64,000 nt of DNA, from positions 62,001 through 126,000 of the forward strand of contig BGKB01000512.1 in the NCBI GenBank assembly GCA_003116975.1. The letters run 5' to 3'. The position numbers were made by a program, and so were the translations under genes. The notes beneath the pieces were generated by a model that was given only the letters and a program-made list of their open reading frames with translations, did not search any database and was not told where the DNA came from. Below, piece after piece: positions 16,166 through 46,362 of this stretch. The stretch is from Aurantiochytrium sp. KH105. Taxonomy: Eukaryota; Sar; Bigyra; Thraustochytrida; Thraustochytriidae. The stretch's first letter is position 1, and each line of letters opens with the position of its first letter.

Positions 16166-17299
16166 TTAAACGTCACCGAGGCCAAGATACTTTTTCGCCT
16201 TGCTGACTCCCTTGTCAGAATGATTTGCTTTGGCGGCAAGTTTGTCAGAAAAGACGAGACCAAAGCCCTGCGTAACTCCATCTGTCTCACCAATGTACAG
16301 GCTCACCTGAGTCGTTGACGATGTGCGAGCGCGCACGTAGCTTGAGCAGAGATACGGAACGAGACAGGCGAACCATGGATTTGAACGACTTGGGTTGTAG
16401 ACTGTTCTCTTACCGTTGATGTTACTGACGACGACCTTGGCATGATCCTTTGTGCACCTTGCCTGTTTGAAATCGCCACTGGCAGCAAGATCACCTACAG
16501 CGTAGACGTTGGACGGCGCACCGTCAACTTGCAGCGTCGGAAGCACCTTGACCTCGCCACTCGATGAAAGCCATTCCTCGGGGAGCATTTGTAGCGTCGA
16601 TGCACTTGCCGCGCAGCCAGCCGTGAAAATGACGAGCGCACCTGGATGTTCCTTTTCGAGATCTTCTCTTGTGCGACGACCACCGCCAAGATGCATTACA
16701 ATGTCCATTTGTTCGAGTTTTTCGTGGACTGCATCCGAGAATTCATCCGCGACAGGAGGGGTTGCGGCGCTGAGGAATGTTTCTTTCGAGTGGTACAGGT
16801 GGACCTCTTTGTCTGGATGCGTGGCTTTGATCTGTGTCGAAGTCTCAACTCCGAGTGCGCCTCCGCCTACGATGACGACGACATTTGCAGCCCGAACTCG
16901 CTCCTGCTCGGCCCTAAGGTACTCGAGCATTTCGGCTTTTGACATGACCTTTTCCGGGAGCTGTCCAAAGCCGTGCGAGAGACCCATGGCAAGAATGAGA
17001 TGATCGTACTCGATCGTCTCGTGCTCGCCATTGGCCAATTCGACCTCGACCTTGTTCTCCGCAGCATTGACATTAAGCGCCGCGCCGTGCACGAGCCGCG
17101 ACGCAGGCCTCTTGACGGCCCGGGTGAGTGGCAAGAGGGCTTCTGTCTCGTACCCGGGCTTGACACACGCGCGCGTGCCGCCGATCTTATGAAAAAACCA
17201 CTCGTTTCTCTCAATGAGGGTCACGTCGATGCCGCTGGCCTCGAGCGCCCTCGTTGCGGCGATCCCCGCATAGCTGCCTCCAATTACTACGACTCGCAT
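16166..17299 (-). CDS. FSP1/AIFM2-like NAD(P)H quinone oxidoreductase, copy without targeting tag
   Basis: 377 aa FAD-dependent pyridine nucleotide-disulfide oxidoreductase of the AIF/FSP1 branch. It starts directly with the FAD dinucleotide fold VVVIGGSYAGI (3-13). It has a second Rossmann motif VVIVGGGALGVETS near 140-153 for NAD(P)H and the FAD-contact motif NVYAVGDLAASGDF near 264-277. Length and order match FSP1-type enzymes, which reduce quinones. There is no redox-active CxxxxC pair, so it is not a glutathione reductase type. The C-terminus is SKAKKYLGLGDV, with no organelle tag. Its nearest relative is the next gene (18115-19311), same strand and highly similar throughout, so this is a tandem duplicate pair. 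Start ATG 17299 is the only one compatible with the fold. Confidence 0.92.
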   Translation of the reverse strand: MRVVVIGGSYAGIAATRALEASGIDVTLIERNEWFFHKIGGTRACVKPGYETEALLPLTRAVKRPASRLVHGAALNVNAAENKVEVELANGEHETIEYDHLILAMGLSHGFGQLPEKVMSKAEMLEYLRAEQERVRAANVVVIVGGGALGVETSTQIKATHPDKEVHLYHSKETFLSAATPPVADEFSDAVHEKLEQMDIVMHLGGGRRTREDLEKEHPGALVIFTAGCAASASTLQMLPEEWLSSSGEVKVLPTLQVDGAPSNVYAVGDLAASGDFKQARCTKDHAKVVVSNINGKRTVYNPSRSNPWFACLVPYLCSSYVRARTSSTTQVSLYIGETDGVTQGFGLVFSDKLAAKANHSDKGVSKAKKYLGLGDV

Positions 17300-18114
17300 C
17301 GTCTTGAGAGTCCTTGCGCTTTTCCGTTTTGCTGCCGACTCATCACTGTCAGGCCTCGCCAGCTAGAGGCTAGCTCCAAGTCAGCCAGCCACCACCCAGG
17401 CAGCCTGTTCGGCAGCTTGTTCTTTTGGGACTTGCCTTCACCGTCACCATCTGCAATCTGCCGGAGGTCTCAGCATGGCCTTCGTCCGCTGCAGGCGTCC
17501 CGCCCGCCGAGGCCAGCCAACCTTCCAAGTCTTTGGGATACCATGGTATACTTCTGCCATCTGCAACTCCTACCCAACCCAACCTGGCAGACTCTGTCAG
17601 GCTGCCCGCGCGCGCTTGGCCGCCACGCAATGGCGCTTCCGAGAAGTGCCCGCGCCAAGGCATTCTTTCCGTACATTCATTGTCTGCATGCGGCCCCAGA
17701 GCGCGTGCACGCGCGTGCGTGCGGGGGTGCGTTATTATGCATATATATACTTGGCAAGCGTGGGAGACGGGAGGGCGGCACTGCTGGCCTTGGCGGCTGG
17801 CTGGTCATGACCACTCACATGGCCTTTAGGACGACGGATGTGAGCGAGACGCAAGCCGGTGTCGAAGGTGTCGCAGTACCGCCCGCCGGCCTCGATTCTG
17901 ACATAGGACGACAAGAAGCCGGAAAAGCAAGTACTATTTACACGAAATGGCGATGTGCACAAGTTGCCTCCGCTCACGAGGGGAGGGGGAGATAAATGTT
18001 TCACAAGGGAACCGCCGGGAAGGGGAGACAACGGTTTTAGATGAGCTTTGTGAAGGGCCTACGAAATTCACGAGCGAGAGAGAGAAAAGAAGAGACAAAG
18101 ATTTTTATGAGATT
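17300..18114. other. intergenic between the two FSP1-like genes
   Basis: 815 bp: 5' region of the downstream copy and 3' region of the upstream copy. It contains a TATA-rich stretch (TATGCATATATATAC near 17737-17751) about 440 bp before the downstream start, and a GAGAGAGA purine run near 18075-18090. No coding potential was recognised. Confidence 0.4.
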
Positions 18115-18126
18115 TTAGAGCTTGGA
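18115..18126 (-). other. PTS1 peroxisomal targeting tripeptide SKL plus stop
   Basis: The last three codons TCC AAG CTC followed by TAA give SKL, the canonical type 1 peroxisome targeting signal, preceded by KKK. Confidence 0.85.
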
Positions 18127-19311
18127 CTTCTTCTTGCCTTCCTTCTTGCCGTCGAGCATGCCAACGAACATTTTGGCCTTGCTCGCACCCTTGTCAGGAT
18201 GGTTCACATTTGGGGTGAACTTGTCATTAAAGAGAATGCCCCAAGCCTGTGTGACGCTGTCGGTTTCGCCAATGTACATGTTGATCATCGTAGGGGAAGA
18301 CGTGCGTGCCCGCACGTACGGGAATTTTGCCAGCGAATAGGGAAGCGACCACCACGGGATTGGTCGGCTGGGGTCGTACTCTGCCTTTTCGCCCATGATG
18401 TTCTTGGCGACGACTTGAACGTGATCCTTTGCCCACTTTGCCTGCTTGAAGTCGCCGGATGCGGCGAGATCGCCGACTGCATACACGTTCGATGGAGCCC
18501 CATCGACTTGCATGGTCGGGAGCACCTTGACCTCACCGGTACCCGGCTGCAGCCACTCGCTAGGGAGCATCGAAAGGGTCGTTTCGCTCGGTTGGCAGCC
18601 AGCCGTGGGAATGATTACCGCGCCCGGATGCTTTTTGGCAATCTCTTCTTCACTCAGACGCCCGCCACCGAGATGGAGCTTGACGCCATACTGGTCCATC
18701 TTCTCGAGAACGGCATTCGAGGTCTCATCGGCGATGGGAGGCTTGGCAGCACTGAGGAACTTATCGCGCGAATGATACAGGTGAACTTCCTTGTCTGGGT
18801 GGGTGGCCTTGATCTGGGTCGACGTCTCCACGCCGAGAGCGCCGCCGCCGACGACGACCACCGCCGCGGCATCGGCCAAACGCTCCTGTTCGGATGTCAT
18901 GTACTTGAGCATGTCGTCCTTGGAGAGAATGCGTTCCGGGAGCTGGCCATAGCCGTGCTTGAGGCCCATGGCGAGAACGAGGTTGTCATAGTCGATCGTT
19001 TCCTGCTCGCCATTGGCCAGCTCGACCTTGACCTTGTTGTCCGCAGGGTCGACCTTGAGCGCTGACCCGTGCACGAGGCGGGATCCCGGTCGTTTGAGGG
19101 CTTGGTTGAGAGGCAGGATGGCCTCGTTCTCGTACCCGGGTTTGACGCACGCGCGCGTGCCTCCAATTTTGTGAAAGAAGTACTCGTTTCTCTCGACGAG
19201 CGTCACGTCCACGCCGAGGGGTTCGAGTGCTCTGCAGGCCATGAGACCTGCGTAGCTGCCGCCGATCACCACGGCGCGCATCTTTGTCGCGGCTGTCTTG
19301 ACTTGATTCAT
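18115..19311 (-). CDS. FSP1/AIFM2-like oxidoreductase with C-terminal peroxisomal SKL
   Basis: 398 aa from ATG 19311 (MNQVKTAATKMRAVVIGG). Same fold order as its tandem neighbour: FAD motif VVIGGSYAGL, NAD(P)H motif VVVVGGGALGVETS, and NVYAVGDLAASGDF near the end. The chain ends KKEGKKKSKL-stop: a perfect PTS1 tripeptide preceded by lysines, so peroxisomal import is strongly suggested. Odd feature: the frame remains open upstream of the ATG, encoding an Ala/Val-rich hydrophobic stretch (about 19392-19330) but with no ATG before an in-frame TAG. Either translation starts at 19311, or an upstream exon or non-AUG start adds a membrane anchor. The reaction is presumably NAD(P)H-dependent quinone reduction; the substrate is not visible from sequence. 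Confidence 0.92.
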   Translation of the reverse strand: MNQVKTAATKMRAVVIGGSYAGLMACRALEPLGVDVTLVERNEYFFHKIGGTRACVKPGYENEAILPLNQALKRPGSRLVHGSALKVDPADNKVKVELANGEQETIDYDNLVLAMGLKHGYGQLPERILSKDDMLKYMTSEQERLADAAAVVVVGGGALGVETSTQIKATHPDKEVHLYHSRDKFLSAAKPPIADETSNAVLEKMDQYGVKLHLGGGRLSEEEIAKKHPGAVIIPTAGCQPSETTLSMLPSEWLQPGTGEVKVLPTMQVDGAPSNVYAVGDLAASGDFKQAKWAKDHVQVVAKNIMGEKAEYDPSRPIPWWSLPYSLAKFPYVRARTSSPTMINMYIGETDSVTQAWGILFNDKFTPNVNHPDKGASKAKMFVGMLDGKKEGKKKSKL

Positions 19312-20725
19312 CTCCGTCTGCTCGGGTGTCTTGCCCCACGACTTTAGCGCGACTGCCAGGACTACGCAGGCTGCGGCAGCAGCAGCACCCAATGCGCCAA
19401 GGGTTCTCGTCGTGCCCTGCGCGGGTTTCGGCTCTGCCGCGGCTCTACTCTACTGTTGTCTGGCCTCTCTTGCTCGGCCTCGCGCTCGTTCGAGGTTTGC
19501 TTGCTGCCGCTTGGCTCGTTCCGGGTTTGCTTGCATCGACCGGCCTCCACCTCCGCGTATGCGCCGAGTTCCCCTCCGCCCGCATCGCTGGTCCAGCCGC
19601 GCTCAGCGTCATCTCCGTCTCCCCTCTCCCCACCGCCGCTTGTTCATGGTCGTAAGCTGAGGTCACTGTCAGTCCGCGGTCGGTCGGAGGTCCCAAGACC
19701 AAGAAGCCGGCAGCGGAGACCTACGAGACAGAAGAAGAAGAAGAAGACCAAGAACGAACGATGCCTGCACCAGCAGCTGCTGCAGCTGCAGCTGCAGCTG
19801 CTTGGGCCTTCTCGCAAACGCGGCTGCGGCGGCGTTCGTTGGATCGTTGCTTCGTTTTCCTTCCTCCTTCCTCCTTCCCTCTCCTCTCCTTTCCTTTCCT
19901 TTCCTTTCCTTTCCTTCTCCGACCAGACCAGCCTCCTCGCTCTGCCGCCGATGACGCCGGCGCAGAAGAGCCTGGCGGCGCGTGACGCTTGCTTTTTGCT
20001 GGGCTTTGCCTTGCCTGCTTCGCGTGGCTCAGCTTTGCTCAGCTTTGCTCGCTCGCCGCGGCTTCCTCCCATCCCGACTCGTCTCATCTCAACTCATCCT
20101 CCCGACTCGTCTCATCTCATCTCAATCTCTCACCTCATCTCAGCTCATCTCAGCTCAGCTCAGCTCATCTCGGCTCTCGACCCGCCCCGCCTCGGCCTCG
20201 GCGCGCGTTTCGCCGCAGGAATCTCCTTCTCGCGCGGTCCTCGGCGACCCTCGGCCAAGGCTGGGTCCACGCCGCGTCCGCCCTCGCGCTGAACTCCCCC
20301 GCAGAGGGACCCGTCTGTGGGGCGGAGGGCCGAGAAACGAAGGGAGCGCCGCGCCGGAGCGTGCAGGGAGGATGCAGGGGGTCGCGAGGAAGCGATGGCG
20401 GCGCAAGCCTGTCCCTTTCCCGTACTTTTCGAGGGGGGGGGGGGAGAGGCATGGCGAAGAGGGAGCGAAAAGCAGCATGAGGCGGGGAGACTGCAGTTCA
20501 AAGGCAGGCAGGCAGGCAGGTACAAGAGCTGGTGTGTTGTGCGTGCATACGATAAGTTTACCCATACATAAACAAAAATAGATAGCTTACAGTCATGAAG
20601 ACAGCGGCGGCACAGGTGCCGTCGAAAGTCAGCACCAAAAAGTGCGCGCTTCGTTAGCGTGCGCAGGCTCCTCCTTCTGTCTCTCGTCTCTCCTCTCCTT
20701 TCCCTCTCCTTTTCATTTTCCCTCA
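19312..20725. other. gene-poor spacer with pentamer microsatellites
   Basis: About 1.4 kb. It holds the open hydrophobic stretch upstream of the SKL enzyme (19330-19392), GAAGAA repeats and AGCTGC palindromic repeats (19728-19802), a CCTTT/TTTCC pyrimidine tract (19850-19918), a CTCAT/CTCAG pentamer array (about 20080-20175), an 11-12 base G run at 20436-20446, and GGCA repeats at 20500-20520. Reading frames here are long only because of GC bias; none resembles a protein. Confidence 0.5.
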
Positions 20726-43070: not shown

Positions 43071-43961
43071 CTACTGCGCTGAGCCCGCGTATGCAACACC
43101 TTGCTGACCTGGCGGACGCGCTTGCGCTGTGGATGATGATGATGATGATGAGGAGGAGGAGGAGGAAGACGTCGCAGTAGCAGTGGAGTTTTTCCCTGAG
43201 GCTGCACTTGTCTTTGCCGCCTCGCTCTTGATCTCGCGCAGCTCAGTGACGAGCGCAGACATTTCAGAGAGCTCTTGGCAGGTGCGGTCGATTTCCTGAG
43301 AAACAAACTTTTGCGCCGCCACAAGAGACTTCATACATTCGGTCTCGGATACTGTTGTGAAACAGGGCCGGAGTTGCTCAGGCGAGACGTTTCGCGGCAA
43401 CTTGTTGATGTCATGATCAGAGAGTGTCTTGTAAAATGCCTCGGTTGGCTCATGAAAGATAATTTCCTCGTAGCGCTCCTCAACGACGGGTTTCTTCTTC
43501 AGAGTTGCGACATTTGCCGCCGAGCTTCCGGCGGGATAGAGACGCAAAAAGTGAATCATGTCAAACGAGGTTTCGTCCTCATCCCGAAGCACGACCGTGA
43601 TTTTGGCATCAAATTCGCCCCAGCCGGACTGTGTCACAACGTAGGGCGGCTTATCGCACGTAACCACGGGGACCTGACAACTTGGATGCAGCGTGAAGAT
43701 GACGCGACGGATCATGTACGAAAGATCCTCGTCATCGAGACCGCGAACGTATATGCTCCACTCGTGCGTGGCATCCTCCGTGCTGCGCTTGCCCAAAAAG
43801 AAGGCCACAGACCCGTACACGATGGGCCGTACCACGGTTTTGCCGTGCATGACAGGTCGCGCAGCTGCCGTGGTCGTTGTCGATGGCGCAGAGGCGGGTG
43901 CGGTCTTGCCGGGCGCGGTCCCCGGCGCGGCGCCCGCCCCCCCCGCTCCACCGGCAGTCAT
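43071..43961 (-). CDS. YEATS4: YEATS-domain acyl-lysine reader, Yaf9/GAS41 type
   Basis: 296 aa from the first ATG (MTAGGAGGAG). An Ala/Pro/Thr-rich head (1-35) is followed by the YEATS domain (about 40-170). VVRPIVYGSVAFFL opens the domain, and HEWSIYVRG with DLSYMIRRVIFTLHPSC supplies the acyl-lysine loop His/Ser region. VTQSGWGEFDAKITV supplies the aromatic WGEF loop; all are typical of GAS41/Yaf9. A short coiled coil at about 215-250 (EIDRTCQELSEMSALVTELREI) is where Yaf9 contacts NuA4 and SWR1. The tail has a poly-Ser run coded by TCATCATCA and TCCTCC repeats. Expected role: histone-acyl binding subunit of SWR1/NuA4-type complexes. Earlier in-frame codons lack ATG. Confidence 0.93.
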   Translation of the reverse strand: MTAGGAGGAGAAPGTAPGKTAPASAPSTTTTAAARPVMHGKTVVRPIVYGSVAFFLGKRSTEDATHEWSIYVRGLDDEDLSYMIRRVIFTLHPSCQVPVVTCDKPPYVVTQSGWGEFDAKITVVLRDEDETSFDMIHFLRLYPAGSSAANVATLKKKPVVEERYEEIIFHEPTEAFYKTLSDHDINKLPRNVSPEQLRPCFTTVSETECMKSLVAAQKFVSQEIDRTCQELSEMSALVTELREIKSEAAKTSAASGKNSTATATSSSSSSSSSSSSSTAQARPPGQQGVAYAGSAQ

Positions 43962-44379
43962 ATTCTTGCGCGCTGCGGCCAGCAACTGATTTTTCAATTT
44001 TGGTTATGATTTCGATGGTGTTTTTGTTGGTGTGAGCGATCGATGGCAGCATTTCTTTCGAAGCCAATTTAGCCTGGCTGAGCGCGCACGCTCACCGCGC
44101 CAAAGGCGGACCGTCTGGCCCGAGACTCGGCTCGATAAGCGTTTGATCGCCACATGCCAATTAAATTTGTTATTCTGGCAAGTGTCTCGAAATTCTGTTG
44201 GCCGTCATCTGTGAAACTTGCTCGTGACGTGACCACCGCACGCAGAAACGAAAACCATCGGCAGACTATTCATCGAGAAGGGAATTCGGAGTGGAGCGTG
44301 GAGTGACGGTGATGTTTCGTAGCGCAAAATGGCTCTCTTTTGATAGTTTGTATAAAATCTCACATGCGTTATGTATGTG
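43962..44379. other. intergenic, TIR gene 3' end to YEATS gene 5' end
   Basis: 418 bp, both neighbours on the minus strand. AT-richer than coding sequence. It contains AATTAAATTTG near 44159-44169 and TATAAAATC near 44351-44359. No gene recognised. Confidence 0.4.
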
Positions 44380-46362
44380 CTAGCAAATCAGACATCCACT
44401 TCGATCTTGTGCTGGCTGCCGGATAATGCGTTGGGAAAGACGCGAGGCCGTAGAGGCTGCCGATGATCGCCGTGAAGGGCGCTTGCCTGCCAGAGCACCG
44501 GGGTTGGAGGCCGCAAAAAAGTCCTGGATATCGCGATTGATTTTGCGCACGCACATACCAAAGACGGCATCGTAGATGGGGAGCGCGTTGGACGATTTGA
44601 CGCGGTCCAGGCCGTCAGGAAGGACGCTCATTTCGGCGCCAATGTCAACGTGCTCGCGAAAGACGGGAACAATGAGCATTTTGGGATTGGCGCACGCCAG
44701 GCGAAGCTCTTCAAGGCACCAATCGGTGACACCGTTGGCGTGATTCCTGGCCATGAGCGTTGCAGACGAGAGTTCGGAGGCCGGAGCCACCCCGCCGGAA
44801 GGCGCCGCCGTAAAGAGAGGCATAAGTACGCGGGAGCGCTTGACAGCACGATCAAGTTGGGCTCGAAAGTTGCCCGCACCAAGACCGTGGTCATCGCTGA
44901 CGTCGAGAAAGACAGTATAGCCGAATCGCTCGAGGTGCAAACGCAGACGATCCGCAAAGTCGAGCTGCGCACGGCGATACGAGATAAAAATGTCGTGGTC
45001 ATACTTGTTGGAGTCCGGTAAATGAAGGGCAAAGTCTTGAGGAAGGACGCGATTGGATGTGCCCTCGTCACTAGAAGCCATGTCGGGTGCAGGCGGAGCG
45101 TATTGCATGCCGGGCCGGACCGCTGACAGCGAGGGAGTCTGCAGGCCGCTCATGTAGGTTAAAAATTTGCGGAGATCTTTGACAGAGTAGCTTGTCCCGG
45201 TGGAACCCTTTTCAATACGCGCACCGGTCTGAGCCGCAAAGAAATCGTCTGGAGCGATTTCTGGCTTGGCGCTCTGGCCCTGAACGCCAACGGAGAAGAA
45301 GACGCGAGCTTGGGCGCCAGAGGGCAGCGTCAGGCAGGCTGTGATGATGTGGGAGCGCACAGCATCCTGCATGATGCTGGTTACGGCAAAAGAGACCATC
45401 GACTTTGTTCCTGTCCAAAGCAGGAGATTTTCGGGCTCTGCGCACTGAAAATAGTTTTGGTCAAAGTCGAGGTGAACGGGATAGCTCTGGTTGCGCTTAA
45501 GAAGGACCGGGCCGTGCATACCGACTTGGACGTTGCCGCCTGTGGCCCCGCTGGGGTCCATAGCGTCTGCGAAGGCCATCAATGTGAGAATAAAGGTCTC
45601 TTTGGGGGCAACTGCCTTGGCAGGGCCGTAGGCGTTCAAATAGGCAATATCGAGTTCATCTGCCGAGGAGATGCGAGCAATGGTGTCTGGGACCGTGGGA
45701 GGCGCTTCGCCGCCGCGCAGACGCAGTACGAGAGAAGCGTCGACACTTGATCCATTTTCGGAGACGAGTTGGTCATCAAGCACTTGCTGGCCGGCAATGA
45801 TAAGGCGCTGCTGGTCGGGAGGGATGCCCTCGCGATCAAAAATGCGTTCCTTGGCTTCACCCCAGGTTTCTCCTTGTAAGGTGTCGAGGTAGATAGTTTT
45901 GCCCGTCAGAGTCTTGACGGTCAAGGGGATGGTGGGCTGCGCCATTTTCTTTTTCATGGTTTTCTTGGTGCGTGGTTTTCTCCTTGTTGTAGAGGCTGCT
46001 GCTGCTACTGCTGCTGATGGTGGTGGTAGTTCGTTGTCATCGAACGCGAGAAGGTCTCCTTCAGCCCTTGCGAGCACGTCGTCACCATTCTCGTCGTCTT
46101 CTTCTGCATCCTCTTGGTCGTCGGCAAGGATAAGACGAACTTCAAAGATGAAAGGAAAATCAAAGAGGTCGGCAAGAGTACCCTCGTCATCGGCCGTGAA
46201 CTGCTTGCGCGAGGCAGACTTGCGAGTGCGCGCTTCGAGGGCAAGAATATCAAGGCCAGGTACCTCTTCGTCGACGAGCTCAAGCACGTCGGCTACGGCA
46301 AAAGTGGGATCAACGTCGAGCGCGAGGATGATATCGCCGGGGATGTCGACCAGCAGCAACAT
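44380..46362 (-). CDS. ubiquitin-like / ubiquitin / TIR fusion protein with C-terminal CaaX box
   Basis: 660 aa from the first ATG (MLLLVDIPGD). Residues 1-80 have a ubiquitin-like strand-helix pattern. An acidic then basic linker follows (KPRTKKTMKKKMAQ). Residues 145-218 are a true ubiquitin domain: VKTLTGKTIYL, EGIPPDQQRLIIAG and VLRLRGG, keeping K6, K11, K27, L43/I44 and the C-terminal GG, which is followed by EAPP. Positions of K29, K33, K48 and K63 are not Lys. Residues about 255-365 form an unassigned beta-rich domain. The TIR domain spans 454-600: DHDIFISYRRAQLDFADRL, FGYTVFLD, SRVLMPLFTA, TDWCLEEL (candidate catalytic E552), LIVPVF. The basic Ser-rich tail ends SGCLIC, a CaaX prenylation box. 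Role unknown; NAD-linked or scaffold signalling at a membrane is inferred. Confidence 0.9.
   Translation of the reverse strand: MLLLVDIPGDIILALDVDPTFAVADVLELVDEEVPGLDILALEARTRKSASRKQFTADDEGTLADLFDFPFIFEVRLILADDQEDAEEDDENGDDVLARAEGDLLAFDDNELPPPSAAVAAAASTTRRKPRTKKTMKKKMAQPTIPLTVKTLTGKTIYLDTLQGETWGEAKERIFDREGIPPDQQRLIIAGQQVLDDQLVSENGSSVDASLVLRLRGGEAPPTVPDTIARISSADELDIAYLNAYGPAKAVAPKETFILTLMAFADAMDPSGATGGNVQVGMHGPVLLKRNQSYPVHLDFDQNYFQCAEPENLLLWTGTKSMVSFAVTSIMQDAVRSHIITACLTLPSGAQARVFFSVGVQGQSAKPEIAPDDFFAAQTGARIEKGSTGTSYSVKDLRKFLTYMSGLQTPSLSAVRPGMQYAPPAPDMASSDEGTSNRVLPQDFALHLPDSNKYDHDIFISYRRAQLDFADRLRLHLERFGYTVFLDVSDDHGLGAGNFRAQLDRAVKRSRVLMPLFTAAPSGGVAPASELSSATLMARNHANGVTDWCLEELRLACANPKMLIVPVFREHVDIGAEMSVLPDGLDRVKSSNALPIYDAVFGMCVRKINRDIQDFFAASNPGALAGKRPSRRSSAASTASRLSQRIIRQPAQDRSGCLIC

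Follow-up and report, generated by a model that had tools for sequence, protein, structure and literature searches.

Ubiquitin precursor fusions such as ubiquitin-L40, ubiquitin-S27a and ubiquitin-NiSOD carry LRLRGG followed by a non-proline residue, ahead of an unrelated partner protein. For cryptophytes and chlorarachniophytes, internal positions of the ubiquitin in such fusions have been reported, ubiquitin-NiSOD being an algal example, and the term TIR is absent from the main text of that report (PMC6332867). Conflict systems are described as having ubiquitin, and likewise ubiquitin ligases, among their effector domains (PMC8195603). TIR domains are found in other surroundings. SARM1 carries ARM repeats and a tandem SAM. 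ROC/COR together with TIR is reported in Aplysia (PMC9334734).

The Aurantiochytrium gene described here resembles each of two of the closest systems in part. With the precursor fusions it shares the LRLRGG sequence before a non-proline residue, but its partner is a TIR domain with a CaaX box, its ubiquitin is diverged and lacks Lys48 and Lys63, and 144 residues precede the ubiquitin. With the NAD+ hydrolases SARM1 and TIR-1 it shares the FISYRR start and the DWxxxE catalytic motif of the TIR domain, while ubiquitin, a beta-rich region and the CaaX box stand in place of the ARM repeats and tandem SAM of SARM1. Membership of the SARM1 family was rejected, as Pfam shows neither ARM nor SAM. The gene lies on the minus strand of the window, by which we mean the whole stretch of 64 000 nucleotides that was analysed, and its features are the following.

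44380-46362, minus strand: the complete frame, 660 codons from ATG to TAG, uninterrupted; second genomic copy, dN/dS 0.15.
46111..46362, minus strand: N-terminal segment (residues 1-84), whose likeness to a UBL is visual only; coding, with 8/11 changes synonymous (p 0.001).
45931..46110, minus strand: residues 85-144, linker, acidic, then Ala/Pro, then basic; holds the nine gap codons between the copies.
45709..45930, minus strand: residues 145-218, diverged ubiquitin ending in LVLRLRGG; Pfam PF00240, E 2.2e-11.
45706..45711, minus strand: Gly218-Glu219, predicted deubiquitinase cut site RLRGG/EAPP, read from the sequence.
45103..45657, minus strand: residues 236-420, beta-rich region of no known family; no Pfam or PDB match.
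44503..44994, minus strand: residues 457-620, SARM1-like TIR domain; Pfam PF13676, E 3.4e-10, and a three-row profile against the PDB.
44707..44709, minus strand: Glu552, putative catalytic glutamate (DWCLEEL); aligns with the Glu of SARM1 DWVHKE.
44395..44502, minus strand: residues 621-656, basic Ser-rich tail, read from the sequence; selection p 0.21.
44383..44394, minus strand: residues 657-660, CaaX box CLIC, the chain ending in RSGCLIC; present in both copies.

The assembly comprises 76 Mb in 367 contigs, and many of the genes that we examined occur as near-identical pairs on separate contigs, which suggests a diploid or duplicated genome. The second copy of the present locus (C98:20502-22490) is likewise on another contig and has the same domain order and 97% amino-acid identity. 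Over the whole frame the copies differ by 39.5 synonymous and 19.5 nonsynonymous changes, which corresponds to a dN/dS of 0.15 and departs from neutrality with p 3e-12. The nine gap codons between them all fall within the linker and leave the reading frame intact. Taken by segments, selection is seen for residues 1-84 (p 0.001), 85-146 (p 0.006), 147-219 (p 0.004), 220-420 (p 0.007) and 457-620 (p 0.003), while the shortness of residues 421-456 (p 0.08) and of the tail, residues 621-660 (p 0.21), precludes a verdict on them. Third-position GC is 0.61 for the whole frame, which lies within the spread of nine other frames in the window (0.56 to 0.73), and lower in the linker (0.47) and the tail (0.45). 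The purifying selection, the frame-keeping gaps and the second copy together show a genuine coding gene rather than a chance frame, and the single intact frame of the first-pass annotation is thereby borne out. As the copies are 97% identical, retention of LRLRGG and CLIC in both is no independent sign of constraint. Pfam-A finds ubiquitin and TIR_2 above their cut-offs in the 660 residues and no further family up to E 1.

Among the neighbours in the window, the next downstream gene (43071-43997, minus strand) is YEATS-domain-like by eye. Two adjacent similar frames of 377 and 425 amino acids with a GxGxxG-type start (16166-19392, minus strand) have by eye the look of two flavin-dependent oxidoreductases in tandem. 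Thraustochytrids carry PfaA-type polyunsaturated-fatty-acid synthases, and elsewhere in this genome the PfaA model reaches 930 bits, under its cut-off of 1010 and split over contigs (18 of 68 candidates scored; matches below the cut-off are also found in 11 of 14 control genomes). Together with the long uninterrupted frames of the window, this makes a thraustochytrid-like stramenopile plausible. The PfaA-like pieces come in pairs (C72:311448-314912, C155:172083-175544, C290:39390-42377 and C61:32-2791). Those on C72 and C61 are at the ends of their contigs, a position that tandem ACP repeats left unassembled could explain.

The N-terminal segment had been taken for a ubiquitin-like domain. When residues 1-84 are compared with ubiquitin, 33 residues align without gaps, and shuffled sequences reach the real score in 119 of 1000 cases by local alignment and in 205 of 1000 in the second alignment mode. 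Residues 340-423, taken from the same protein as a control, score better against ubiquitin, with only 7 of 1000 shuffles doing as well. Residues 1-84 match no Pfam family and no PDB entry. The ubiquitin-like reading of this segment is indistinguishable from chance in the shuffle test and is not supported by it.

The domain at residues 145-218 is ubiquitin by family. The Pfam model PF00240 covers residues 147-215 with 43.8 bits against a cut-off of 25.4 (E 2.2e-11). Compared with the organism's own ubiquitin, 39 of 76 positions are identical and 37 differ or are deleted. Lys6, Lys11 and Lys27 are kept, while K29R, K33R, K48Q and K63V are changed; ubiquitin residues 67-68, His68 among them, are deleted, and the substitutions F4T and, in the core, I61S are present. 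The description of this domain as a bona fide ubiquitin thus stands for the ubiquitin and is overstated in the bona fide, given the identity of 39/76, the four altered lysines and the two deleted residues. The losses are unevenly spread. In the positions that we take to form the Ile44 and Ile36 patches, together with the tail, 14 of 16 residues are identical compared with 25 of 60 in the rest of the domain (Fisher p 0.001), and without the tail the patch still has 8 of 10 identical against the same 25 of 60 (p 0.03).

The final eight residues, LVLRLRGG, match ubiquitin exactly and are followed by a glutamate (LVLRLRGG-EAPP), a non-proline residue. Ubiquitin-type domains occupy 38 places in the genome, of which 14 diverged or fused ones were sampled (two of them, on C10 and C7, are near-identical). 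The 24 left out are the two copies of the present gene, ten near-perfect copies, ten apparent second copies and two with an internal stop (C18 and C73). The near-perfect copies score as standard ubiquitin, and those on C31 and C93 end in LRLRGG. Of the 14 sampled domains, 12 (11 distinct) end without LRGG and are domains of UBL type within other frames. The remaining two end in LRGG and were named by eye as a NEDD8-precursor-like protein with a short tail (C8) and as a fusion of ubiquitin to a basic tail of the S27a type (C37). Judged by sequence, the LRGG ending of the present domain is that of processed precursors and not of integral ubiquitin-like domains.

Between the ubiquitin and the TIR domain, residues 219-456 match no Pfam entry and no PDB entry, so that the beta-rich part keeps its first label of an unknown domain. 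A search of the genome with the beta region alone returns its own two copies only. The nearest paralog, at C35:262941 and C9:102621 (loci L052 1540-3951 and L053 1220-3631), has a related TIR, 38% identical over 162 amino acids, and ahead of it a region weakly similar to the beta region, with 7 of 1000 shuffles reaching the score and WTG and SF motifs in common. In the same comparison with the pre-TIR regions of 30 other TIRs, the best was reached by 5 of 200 shuffles. A genome search with the pre-TIR region of the paralog finds its own pair only, a third match at E 8.5 being taken as chance. Going by these sequences, the two regions may represent a single domain that accompanies this type of TIR. 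The paralog differs from the present gene in having neither ubiquitin nor a CaaX box: Pfam gives TIR_2 alone, at 25 bits just under the cut-off of 28, and the chain ends in ANAQ. A neighbouring minus-strand frame in L053 is itself TIR-like by eye. An AlphaFold2 model of the full-length protein from a four-row alignment has a mean pLDDT of 30.4 and no ten-residue block above 43. In it, residues 2-33 begin as strand-strand-helix and residues 239-360 contain seven strands, and the ubiquitin itself is left unfolded. With this pLDDT and an unfolded ubiquitin, nothing was drawn from it.

The TIR domain itself, proposed in the first-pass annotation, is confirmed. PF13676 (TIR_2) covers residues 458-570 with 40.9 bits over a cut-off of 28 (E 3.4e-10). 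A search of the PDB with the single TIR sequence gives SARM1 for all 17 sequences at E<=1 (best 5e-5), the match being confined to query residues 5-63. With a three-row profile that includes the paralog pair, 19 of 22 sequences at E<=1 are SARM1 or TIR-1, with a best E of 3.7e-9 and an alignment over profile positions 1-161 of 172. In this alignment Glu552 meets the glutamate of SARM1 DWVHKE, which we take to be the catalytic Glu642. Only Asp487 and Glu552 are invariant in 20 TIR rows from the genome, which comprise the present gene, the paralog pair and 17 rows kept from the 30 top-scoring loci after those more than 90% alike were dropped. Between the two copies of the gene the TIR domain has four synonymous changes and no nonsynonymous change. 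The retention of Glu552 and the position of the SARM1 NADases as nearest among solved structures make NADase activity of this sequence likely.

Cys549 stands three residues ahead of Glu552 (DWC549LEE552), a likeness to plant TIRs of the L6/L7 and RPS4 class, in which the cysteine presumably has the same spacing of -3 from the catalytic glutamate. The present protein differs from these in having neither NB-ARC nor LRR by Pfam, and the match of the three-row profile to plant L6 is weak (E 0.77) and stops short of the glutamate. In plant L7, a cysteine next to the glutamate is described as important for 2′,3′-cNMP synthesis (PMC9153377).

TIR domains are abundant in this genome. TIR_2 was found at no fewer than 150 places (150 scored among 258 candidates), and COR-A at 124, 116 of them over the cut-off. 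Seven TIR frames were sampled, some of them cut at the N-terminus: four have COR-A before the TIR, as in Roco-type proteins, two have ankyrin repeats (L013 and L031) and one has no other Pfam domain (L009). Roc itself was matched in L026; L010, L019 and L028 are, with it, further examples of the repertoire. The Roco-TIR family thus looks expanded. L013 (C36:461611-464991) combines ankyrin repeats, a stretch that is SAM-like by eye and a TIR; its order resembles the SAM-TIR order of SARM1, and its SAM is undetected by Pfam. When the lists of ubiquitin and TIR places were compared by eye (150 of the 258 TIR candidates scored), the present gene was the only one with both.

The C-terminus is as the first reading of the sequence described it, a Ser-rich basic stretch that runs into a CaaX box, CLIC in both copies, and the genome has the prenyltransferases for such a box. 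Among 64 distinct ends of mechanically called ORFs of at least 300 codons, taken from the window and the examined loci (many of them TIR loci), a CaaX box is found in the two copies of this gene and in none of the other 62. The Prenyltrans model matches at six places, three apparent pairs, with farnesyltransferase beta and geranylgeranyltransferase-I beta among them. A cysteine as X of the CaaX box would favour farnesyl.

In a literature search over ubiquitin-TIR combinations, TIR with CaaX, and TIRs in thraustochytrids or labyrinthulids, no such protein was found, a null that stems partly from the matching of all terms, and no paper was found with both 'thraustochytrid' and 'TIR domain'. This agrees with the earlier impression that no protein with a ubiquitin-TIR order has been described. 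The parts are of known kinds, and their combination is new as far as the literature search reaches. Patterns made from the TIR alignment gave 55 matches in viral contigs and 23 in prokaryote genomes, none of which was confirmed in either set. Such patterns reach close relatives only and the collections searched were viral and prokaryotic, so that this absence of relatives says little.

Our preferred reading, held tentatively and at somewhat below an even chance, is that the gene encodes a fusion of the ubiquitin-precursor type, from which a deubiquitinase cut after Gly218 would release a membrane-anchored beta-TIR-CaaX effector that cleaves NAD+. Deubiquitinases would split the chain into an N-terminal, ubiquitin-bearing piece (residues 1-218) and the beta-TIR-CaaX piece (residues 219-660), with Glu as the new N-terminal residue of the latter. 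Glu is a destabilising N-terminal residue of the Arg/N-degron pathway. The 219-660 chain would be farnesylated or geranylgeranylated and, together with its basic stretch, seated on the inner face of a membrane. Clustered there, the TIR domain would cleave NAD+ or make a nucleotide signal that leads to cell death or defence signalling, and the fusion would determine the ratio, the timing or the stability of a hazardous NADase.

Whether the ubiquitin is cut off or stays in place is the point on which the readings divide. Cleavage is to be expected from the exact LVLRLRGG before a non-proline residue, an ending that 12 of the 14 sampled non-standard domains lack. As LVLRLRGG-Glu is the ending of deubiquitinase-cut fusions, ubiquitin and TIR may part soon after translation. 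The joining of ubiquitin, TIR and CaaX in one frame, as first annotated, therefore holds, while a lasting ubiquitin-TIR fusion is doubtful, and a cleavable fusion appears more likely than a lasting chimera. Against a precursor, the 144 residues ahead of the ubiquitin are unusual and would be pointless were the ubiquitin merely a leaving group, and with K48Q, K63V and two deleted residues the domain departs from a near-standard ubiquitin capable of K48 or K63 chains. Phe4, Lys48 and His68 of ubiquitin help some deubiquitinases to bind, so that their alteration here may hinder some of these enzymes, and I61S with the two-residue deletion may loosen the fold and render cleavage slow or absent. 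The reading draws, moreover, on one gene in one genome, and third-position GC is lower in its linker and tail than over the whole frame. The alternative is an integral, uncut ubiquitin, a module on which ubiquitin-binding proteins or the proteasome dock and which holds or recruits the membrane-anchored TIR NADase, comparable to the UBLs of Rad23 and ubiquilin. We regard this as possible, with a somewhat lower probability than cleavage. Loss of Lys48 and Lys63 with the Ile44 patch largely kept suits a binding module rather than a chain builder, the domain is internal and follows 144 selected residues, and a Rad23 model is one of two NCBIfam matches and lies over the ubiquitin, at 19.3 bits far under its cut-off of 207.3; what speaks against it is the exact LVLRLRGG with a residue other than proline after it, an ending that 12 of the 14 non-standard domains sampled do not have. 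An ordinary Rad23-type UBL protein is disfavoured by the retained terminal GG, which integral UBLs are expected to lack. The product 1-218 could also itself be a ubiquitin-like modifier that is joined to targets through its free GG end, with the TIR part as passenger. The LVLRLRGG tail including Arg72 and the 8 of 10 non-tail patch positions identical to ubiquitin would suit this, but the core positions have drifted and we know of no modifier of 218 amino acids with an acidic/basic linker, and we consider it very improbable.

Two further readings concern the TIR part and the reading of the locus as one gene. The TIR domain could be a scaffold without enzyme activity that polymerises at the membrane with the TIRs of other proteins and relays a signal as the MyD88 and MAL TIRs do. 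Partners would be plentiful, given the 150 TIR places scored, and NAD+ hydrolysis is described as not universal among TIRs (PMC9153377). The retained Glu552, the SARM1 NADases as nearest solved structures and the absence of any amino-acid-altering change among the four TIR changes between the copies weigh on the other side, and we judge a pure scaffold distinctly unlikely. An origin by misassembly or by the merging of two genes into one reading is unlikely too, indeed barely credible: Met140 immediately precedes the ubiquitin, as would suit two genes, but the frame is found on two contigs, and purifying selection in one and the same frame acts both on residues 1-84 (p 0.001) and on residues 85-146 (p 0.006), with gaps of whole codons only. 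On the strength of this selection on both halves within one frame, the two-gene reading was rejected.

A more specific form of the cleavable fusion is a deubiquitinase-gated NADase, in which the ubiquitin is a removable cap. Deubiquitinase activity would set the amount of free beta-TIR, exposure of the N-terminal Glu as an N-degron would make it short-lived, and the 1-218 piece would keep a free GG. We consider this rather unlikely; if true, NAD+-based cell death or defence would be coupled directly to the deubiquitinase activity of the cell. Immunity and cell death are linked, from bacteria to plants and neurons, by NAD+-destroying TIR enzymes, which cells have to restrain. To produce such an enzyme fused to ubiquitin and ending in a lipid-anchor tail would be a new means of restraint.
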